From the NCBI GenBank assembly GCA_022565395.1, contig JAIUMV010000001.1:203586-267585 (forward strand): a stretch of 64,000 bases of DNA. The letters are read 5' to 3'. This document shows positions 27,032 to 45,613 of this stretch, in pieces (position 1 is the first letter of the stretch; each line of letters starts with the position of its first letter). The notes under the pieces are model-generated. The model made no database searches. It was not told the origin of the DNA and saw nothing but the letters and a program-made list of their open reading frames with translations. The stretch is from Marinobacter sp. (GTDB lineage Bacteria > Pseudomonadota > Gammaproteobacteria > Pseudomonadales > Oleiphilaceae). The position numbers were made by a program, and so were the translations under genes.

Positions 27032-27490
27032 ATGGAAACCACGGCCGCTACCGCAAAATCCCCAGTTATCAGCATCTCGGCAATCATCATTGGCGGCCTG
27101 GCACTGGTGCTGGCCCTGGCCCATTTCTGGTCGGCGCCACAGACGCCCAAACCCGCCCCGCAATCCAACCTGGCCAGTCTGTCCAGCAGTGTGCACCAAT
27201 CAGTGTTGAGCCTGCTGCAGGGCAAATCCGCGGAGACAAACAGCCAGCCCAACCCGTTGCACCCTGATCGTGTGGCGGTCATGATCACCACCCTGCTCGG
27301 CACATTTGCACTGATCCTCGCCGCGCTGGCCACTGTCCGCCGCGAACCTGCAACAGCTACCGGCTGTGCCGCCCTGCTCGGCCTTGCCGCCATCGCCCTG
27401 CCCTACTTCACTCTCTATATAATGGTGGCTCTGGTGATCATATTTATCGTGGCTGTGATCATAGCACTGGGCGATGCCCTGCAAGGCTGA
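27032..27490 (+). CDS. Uncharacterised membrane protein
   Basis: A 152-residue protein with an N-terminal hydrophobic segment (residues about 13-32), a polar, Ser/Gln-rich stretch of about 50 residues, then three hydrophobic segments to the end. No known domain is recognised. GAGGAG (27015-27020) selects this ATG over an upstream frame. It lies 33 bases before the MreB-like/LprI fusion gene and may belong with it. Confidence 0.65.
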   Translation: METTAATAKSPVISISAIIIGGLALVLALAHFWSAPQTPKPAPQSNLASLSSSVHQSVLSLLQGKSAETNSQPNPLHPDRVAVMITTLLGTFALILAALATVRREPATATGCAALLGLAAIALPYFTLYIMVALVIIFIVAVIIALGDALQG

Positions 27491-27523
27491 CCGTTCCTCA
27501 ATTAACCGGAGTCACCTACCCCC

Positions 27524-28483
27524 ATGGTGTTTAAAAAGCTACAGGCTGCTATTTCTCCCACCCTCTACATACAAATCTGGGAACATCGCCTCAAGGTCAC
27601 CAACCTGAAAACCGGACAGGTCTATGAGGACGCGCCGCTGGTGGCCATTGAAACATCGCCCAGAGGCGACAAGAAGGTCGCCGCTATAGGCGCAGCGGCG
27701 GGGCAGCTACCTCTGCGTAGCAACATTGAGTTGGTGAACCCCTTCTCCCACGCCCGCACCTTGCTGAATGATTTTGTAATAGCGGAGACGTTGATAATGC
27801 ACGGGGTCAGAAACGTCTGCGGGAAAGACCTTGTGCCCGCCGCGCCGGCTGTGATCATGCACCCTATGGAAAAACTCGACGGTGGTCTGACTCATATCGA
27901 GCGTAAGGCCTTACGCGAACTGGCACTCGGCGCAGGCGCGCGTGCCGTTACGGTGTATCAGGGTGAAGAACTCAGCACACGAACACTGGATTTTGATGCA
28001 CTGGCAAAGCGTGACCCGGATACTCGCCTGTCCAGCAAAAGGCAGGGGCAATCACCGGCACTTGTGGTGATCATGGTGGTGATAGGTATTGCCTTGTTTA
28101 TACTGAGCCTTCTGGCTGACGCCAAGGATGAGCTCAATTGCGAACAGGCCATCTCAACTCTGGAAATCAATCACTGCGCAGCCCTGGAACTTCAGGCCAT
28201 AGAGGAAACTCTCGCCCACTACCTCGACGTCAGTCGCGATCGCCTTGATTATGACCCCGTCGCCGTTGCCAGCCTCGATGCTGCCCAGGAAGCCTGGGTT
28301 GATTACCGAAGCGCGCATTGCGATGCAGTCTATGATCTGTGGCGGGACGGTACTATCCGTACCGTTATGGCCATCGAGTGCGCCAAGGCGCTAACTCAGG
28401 ACCGTACGCAGATCCTGTGGCAGGCTTACCTCACCTATATGGACAGCACACCACCGGTGTTGCCGGAGCCGTACCCCAAGTAG
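27524..28483 (+). CDS. MreB-like domain fused through a membrane segment to an LprI/DUF1311 domain
   Basis: A 319-residue protein with three parts. Residues 1-170 resemble the short MreB-like (rod shape-determining) family of gammaproteobacteria: VNPFSHARTLLNDFVIAE, AVIMHPMEKLDGG, IERKALRELALGAGARAV. Residues about 185-205 are a membrane segment (VVIMVVIGIALFILSLL). The rest has LNCEQA, INHC, LDAAQEAWVDYRSAHCDAVYDL and IECAKALT, the cysteine pattern of the LprI/DUF1311 domain, which is usually periplasmic and includes lysozyme inhibitors. The MreB part lacks the second actin lobe, so filament formation is doubtful. The topology suggests cytoplasmic N-terminus and periplasmic C-terminus. Function is unknown. 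Confidence 0.8.
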   Translation: MVFKKLQAAISPTLYIQIWEHRLKVTNLKTGQVYEDAPLVAIETSPRGDKKVAAIGAAAGQLPLRSNIELVNPFSHARTLLNDFVIAETLIMHGVRNVCGKDLVPAAPAVIMHPMEKLDGGLTHIERKALRELALGAGARAVTVYQGEELSTRTLDFDALAKRDPDTRLSSKRQGQSPALVVIMVVIGIALFILSLLADAKDELNCEQAISTLEINHCAALELQAIEETLAHYLDVSRDRLDYDPVAVASLDAAQEAWVDYRSAHCDAVYDLWRDGTIRTVMAIECAKALTQDRTQILWQAYLTYMDSTPPVLPEPYPK

Positions 28484-28498
28484 CCCGCCGCAGAAATC

Positions 28499-28581
28499 CG
28501 TTCACCCTGAGCCTGTCGGAGATTACAGGCACCCAGGCCCCACATTTGAGACCTCACCCCTCGACAGGCCCAGGGTGAACG
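28499..28581. repeat. REP-like inverted pair
   Basis: The 20-mer CGTTCACCCTGAGCCTGTCG (28499-28518) is repeated in inverted orientation at 28562-28581 with one mismatch and a 43-base spacer. Another copy lies at 45588-45607. Palindromic units of this kind are common extragenic repeats. Here the pair fills the gap between the fusion gene and the DUF2513 gene and may also fold as a terminator. Confidence 0.75.
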
Positions 28582-28740
28582 GGAGGCGTCCCAACCCAGT
28601 CGAAGCGTATTCATGCGGATAACAACAGACTCTGTTTGTTCCAGCAGCCCCCTCAGCAGCAACAAACTGCACTATACTGATTCTTCCTCACACTGCTTTC
28701 TTCCCCACAGCGATAGCCAACAACGGCAAGGAGATAAGGG

Positions 28741-45587: not shown

Positions 45588-45613
45588 CGTTCACCCTGAG
45601 CCTGTCGAAGGGT
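45588..45613. repeat. REP-like unit (third copy)
   Basis: CGTTCACCCTGAGCCTGTCG followed by AAGGGTGA, which makes a 7-base hairpin TCACCCT/AGGGTGA. It matches the 20-mer at 28499-28518 exactly, as a single unit rather than the inverted pair. Confidence 0.75.

Follow-up and report, generated by a model that had tools for sequence, protein, structure and literature searches.

Organization of the locus

The window, a stretch of 64,000 nucleotides from a Marinobacter sp. contig, carries two genes in the span 27032-28483. The second gene encodes a half-MreB domain joined through a predicted membrane helix to an LprI domain. The features are as follows.

27032..27490, + strand: upstream gene, 152 aa, several predicted transmembrane segments (open frame, hydropathy)
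27524..28483, + strand: fusion gene, 319 aa, a single open frame (ATG at 27524, stop at 28481-28483)
27524..28003, + strand: half-MreB domain, residues 1-160, assigned to MreB domain I (IA+IB) only and YjaA-related (PF06723, NF041448, hhalign, AF2 model)
28058..28123, + strand: predicted transmembrane helix, residues ~179-200 (hydropathy peak, flanking charges)
28133..28480, + strand: LprI/DUF1311 domain, residues ~204-319 (PF07007, alignment with 11 free-standing relatives)

The small membrane protein that the original prediction placed before the fusion is encoded by a separate gene; the 152-aa ORF shares its frame with the fusion ORF and ends at its own stop codon. The two genes are separated by 33 bases and are possibly carried on one transcript. 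The upstream protein is nearly unique, and the only relative that we found is 39% identical (L046:204-683). This relative lies at a contig end, directly after the genes of a YkuD L,D-transpeptidase and an M74 murein endopeptidase.

Just 3' of the fusion gene (window 28498-28582) lies the 21-base inverted repeat GTTCACCCTGAGCCTGTCG, which has a further copy at 45589-45607. Three matches to it arose in 0 of 100 shuffles, and it looks like a dispersed repeat.

The fusion gene is intact

The original prediction named a sequence error joining two genes as a possible source of the fusion, and we found no trace of one. The 319-aa frame is unbroken, without a frameshift, and the locus lies in the middle of its contig. 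Codon usage is coding-like across the N-terminal half, the helix-bearing linker and the C-terminal half, while the other two frames are not coding-like. In a search of the source genome for sequences that could have given rise to a chimera, the LprI domain was matched once in total and no second half-MreB was detected. A sequencing or assembly join was thus rejected as an explanation. The half-MreB, membrane segment and DUF1311/LprI architecture is borne out by the Pfam matches of both halves and by hydropathy, and is well supported, far beyond chance.

The N-terminal half corresponds to MreB domain I

The Pfam MreB_Mbl family (PF06723) matches residues 29-145 with an E-value of 1.1e-9 and 38 bits, above its cut-off of 27 bits, and the match covers positions 19-127 of the 327 in the profile, i.e. 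the first lobe only. When the N-terminal family profile was compared by hhalign with an MreB alignment that included the genome's own full-length MreB, residues 1-147 were matched at 99.2% probability (1.6e-19). The homology stops at about residue 147 and is followed by the linker, the membrane helix and the LprI domain. Domain II of MreB is missing, and the protein therefore does not comprise both domains of the actin fold. The genome encodes a separate, normal MreB, to which the N-terminal half is ~31% identical over 143 residues, and the N-terminal stretch MVFKKLQAAIS aligns with the membrane helix of MreB.

The structure of the N-terminal half was modelled by AlphaFold without templates from two sequences, the window protein and one relative (pLDDT 65, pTM 0.61). 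In Foldseek searches with this model, the first 20 rows were all MreB or models containing MreB/Mbl, with a best E-value of 3e-6 and query TM-scores of 0.50 to 0.65. VIA likewise returned MreB as the best match (Z 12.8, 136 residues, rmsd 2.9). Since the Pfam, profile-profile and structure-model searches all end on MreB, the N-terminal half is, as judged by sequence comparison and modelling, MreB domain I and nothing more. This agrees with the original description of an MreB-like domain lacking the second actin lobe. A model of the full 319-aa protein, predicted from one sequence, had a mean pLDDT of 41.

The nucleotide site is replaced and the pairing helix retained

We inspected the nucleotide-site motifs of MreB, namely phosphate-1 (DLGTANT), the catalytic EEP and phosphate-2 (DIGGGTT), and the fusion protein does not carry this set. 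None of the 20 aligned half-MreBs retains any of the phosphate-1 residues D16, G18, T19, N21 and T22 (numbered as in the genome's own MreB), the EEP segment is replaced as well, and the homology ends before phosphate-2, which is absent. Because the phosphate-1 residues are replaced and the EEP, phosphate-2 and domain II are missing, nucleotide-driven filament formation by the half-MreB appears very unlikely. The label "cytoskeletal-type module", given to this half in the original prediction, is thus not supported.

On the other hand, the fusion protein shares with MreB the domain I fold, the aligned N-terminal stretch and the pairing helix, and it adds the predicted membrane helix and a putatively periplasmic domain. 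The column of E. coli MreB V121 and CcMreB V118, which we assigned by our own count against E. coli MreB, is occupied by I125 in the fusion protein and by I, V or M in 20/20 half-MreBs, and the next residue is Glu in every one of them. The MreB mutation V121E/V118E disrupts the protofilament pair, V118E yielding single protofilaments, and V121E does not restore rod shape, the cells staying round (PMC4051119). Judging from this pattern in the pairing helix, sideways pairing of the half-MreB is possible. The helix also packs in the core of the actin fold, which is an alternative reason for its conservation.

A YjaA-like family of half-MreBs

The original prediction treated the N-terminal half as MreB-like without assigning it to a family, and did not recognize that a family of YjaA-like half-MreBs exists. 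This family, which includes E. coli YjaA, is patchily distributed within the Gammaproteobacteria, and some of its copies contain stops; both features suggest a dispensable function. The proteins nearest to the N-terminal half of the fusion are long half-MreBs of ~160-210 aa, which reach 50% identity. Among these, L003, L047 and L048 have a hydrophobic membrane tail at the end and no LprI domain, and others stop before the tail. Short half-MreBs of ~127-160 aa score against the YjaA model, but stay under its cut-off.

The fusion protein itself scores 48.6 bits (E 7.6e-13) against the YjaA model NF041448, below the cut-off of 125 bits, whereas E. coli YjaA scores 177 bits. By these scores its N-terminal half is a relative of YjaA, not a member by the NCBI definition. 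Pfam reports no MreB match in E. coli K-12 YjaA (b4011, L107:2735-3115). In hhalign comparisons, the long-form half-MreB profile matches E. coli YjaA at 1.6e-12 and the short YjaA-like proteins of relatives at 2.6e-29. Because the long forms match both YjaA and MreB, long intermediates (L048, L060 and L064) form a bridge between YjaA and MreB domain I. The half-MreB core of the fusion protein and YjaA could be placed in one alignment, and the motifs F..R.L...F..AE and E...GGL..[VI]E are common to both. YjaA differs from the fusion in its length (~127 aa) and in lacking the IB-like segment, the membrane helix and the LprI domain. The papers that we searched contained no link between YjaA and MreB or between DUF1311 and MreB.

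The C-terminal LprI domain

The HMM search also upheld the DUF1311/LprI assignment of the C-terminal half. Pfam LprI (PF07007) matches residues 208-296 with an E-value of 1.2e-13 and 51.8 bits (cut-off, 22 bits), and the profile of this half matches the DUF1311 structure PDB 3gi7 (E 2e-4). The nearest LprI relatives are small separate proteins, up to 54-56% identical. In the alignment of the window protein with the 11 free-standing relatives, four cysteines are invariant (12/12 sequences); the domain also has a C-terminal VLPEP motif. The 11 relatives carry N-terminal hydrophobic, signal-peptide-like segments, which, together with the invariant cysteines, fit a periplasmic placement of the domain. 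PDB 3gi7 and the free-standing proteins have the same domain as the fusion, but are secreted and unfused.

The name LprI derives from a mycobacterial lysozyme inhibitor, the LprI of M. tuberculosis having been reported as such in work cited in PMC7933661. The Salmonella LprI-domain protein ScwA has no role in lysozyme resistance and instead controls the lytic transglycosylase MltD (PMC7933661), so that "lysozyme-inhibitor-like", as this half was originally described, is a weak guide to its function. LprI proteins are diverse, and ScwA is a distant member of the family. Like the fusion's domain, predicted to be periplasmic, ScwA combines an LprI domain having conserved cysteines with a periplasmic location. 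ScwA, however, has 275 aa and no cytosolic part, and only the LprI domains are comparable, likened here by description rather than by alignment.

Other LprI proteins show further architectures. In two (L031:757-1917 and L033:1474-2640), the LprI domain is fused to a further, C-terminal domain of ~240 aa; both copies of this domain contain the stretch GIGHFIWYP, and its matches in Pfam, NCBIfam and PDB did not exceed chance. In a 405-aa protein (L040:1483-2700), the C-terminal part matches the LprI domain of the window and is preceded by a long N-terminal extension. An LprI-family gene also resides on the 5.6-kb mobilizable Klebsiella plasmid NZ_CP077817.1 (L106:2486-2977).

Membrane topology

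The fusion protein has a single strongly hydrophobic segment, with a Kyte-Doolittle peak of 3.2 at ~179-198, as compared to 0.9 for the next best segment. It is flanked by SKRQG (KR) on the predicted cytosolic side and by the acidic DAKDE on the predicted periplasmic side. Taken together, hydropathy, flanking charges and the periplasmic character of related LprI proteins strongly indicate a bitopic inner-membrane protein with a predicted N-in/C-out orientation, in agreement with the original placement of the MreB part inside the cell and the LprI part outside.

RodZ, a partner of MreB, binds it through a cytosolic helix-turn-helix domain. The fusion resembles RodZ in its predicted topology and in the idea behind it, with a cytosolic part that contacts MreB (putatively, in the fusion), one membrane helix and a periplasmic domain. 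Unlike RodZ, the cytosolic part of the fusion derives from MreB itself, and its periplasmic domain is unrelated to that of RodZ.

Distribution of the fusion

No second half-MreB-LprI fusion was present among ~930 distinct genomes (relatives, the family, the order, the class and two further families), a set with no other genome of the fusion's own genus. A peptide-pattern scan of genome contigs, of limited sensitivity, gave no further fusion; nor did phages or viral contigs, and plasmids yielded the LprI part only. A PADLOC search for defence systems gave no match, and no system of this kind was described in the papers searched, as the original prediction had supposed. Relatives carry both halves as separate genes; the half-MreB may or may not have a membrane tail, and the LprI protein bears a signal peptide. 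Neither adjacency nor a shared operon of the two genes was observed in these relatives, and no conserved neighbours were found.

In a tree of the N-terminal half, the true MreBs form one group and the short half-MreBs another, and the fusion falls among the long forms. The LprI tree places it with free-standing relatives. A phylogeny, proposed along with the original prediction, thus groups each half with free-standing relatives without fixing the exact position of the fusion. The gene is a new combination of domains from two known families, and most likely arose recently, by fusion of two genes that stand apart in relatives.

Functional interpretation

We tentatively favour a regulator of wall hydrolases in which the LprI domain is tethered to the membrane in the vicinity of MreB. 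On the cytosolic side, a degenerate, YjaA-related MreB domain I would neither bind nucleotide nor form filaments lengthwise. It would keep the protofilament-pairing helix of MreB and an N-terminal stretch like the MreB membrane helix, and could thereby dock sideways on MreB filaments, or dimerize in the same way. Docking would position the LprI domain, outside, wherever new wall is inserted, and there it may stabilize or restrain peptidoglycan hydrolases in the way that ScwA acts on MltD. Both the docking on MreB and the hydrolase control, and with them the mechanism as a whole, are what we infer. The peptidoglycan-enzyme genes beside the relative of the upstream gene also point, weakly, to the wall.

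The main rival, which we consider somewhat doubtful, is a chance fusion without joint function, in which a lost stop and a lost signal-peptide start joined a membrane-tailed half-MreB to a secreted LprI. The half-MreB would then be a mere anchor, and each part would keep its old job or one would drift. The occurrence of the fusion in one genome only, the existence of both halves alone with no operon of the two in relatives, and the decay of half-MreB genes in some genomes all favour such an accident. Moreover, as neither a second fusion nor a shared operon was found, nothing independent says that the halves cooperate. However, the fusion keeps the residues conserved in the free-standing relatives of each half, as well as coding-like codon usage, and neither half therefore looks abandoned.

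It is quite improbable that the protein is a membrane-held inhibitor of an external peptidoglycan-cutting enzyme, be it a lysozyme of the host or a T6SS effector of a competitor, with the N-terminal half as its anchor. The report on M. tuberculosis LprI is in line with this role, and LprI proteins adjoining T6SS effectors are putative immunity proteins (PMC12135965, PMC8867033), but ScwA does not protect from lysozyme, no T6SS-effector-like gene occurs among the flanking genes examined, and a conserved half-MreB would be superfluous in an immunity protein. We give even less credence to a membrane-spanning stress sensor, in which disulfides of the LprI domain would sense the state of the wall or the redox state and the half-MreB would signal to MreB or another partner inside, in a YjaA-like stress function. 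Although the four invariant cysteines would suit a sensor, there is neither an output domain nor a recognizable partner regulator adjoining. E. coli YjaA, a remote member of the family, is familiar chiefly as a typing marker and a stress gene. Its link to stress by peroxide, cadmium and acid (PMC3050900) speaks for a sensor, but this evidence is indirect.

A wider form of the tethered-regulator proposal is that a half-actin without nucleotide binding pairs with MreB and carries a hydrolase-controlling LprI domain across the membrane, and that the YjaA-like family, E. coli YjaA included, consists of natural modulators of MreB filament pairing; in this full extent we regard it as unlikely. The intermediates indicate that E. 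coli YjaA is what is left of an MreB domain I; a gene whose mechanism is unknown thereby gains a concrete hypothesis. It is an open question how cells coordinate wall cutting with the wall synthesis guided by MreB. If the proposal is true, the fusion would be a direct link from MreB to wall cutting within one chain, and it points to a link that can be tested.
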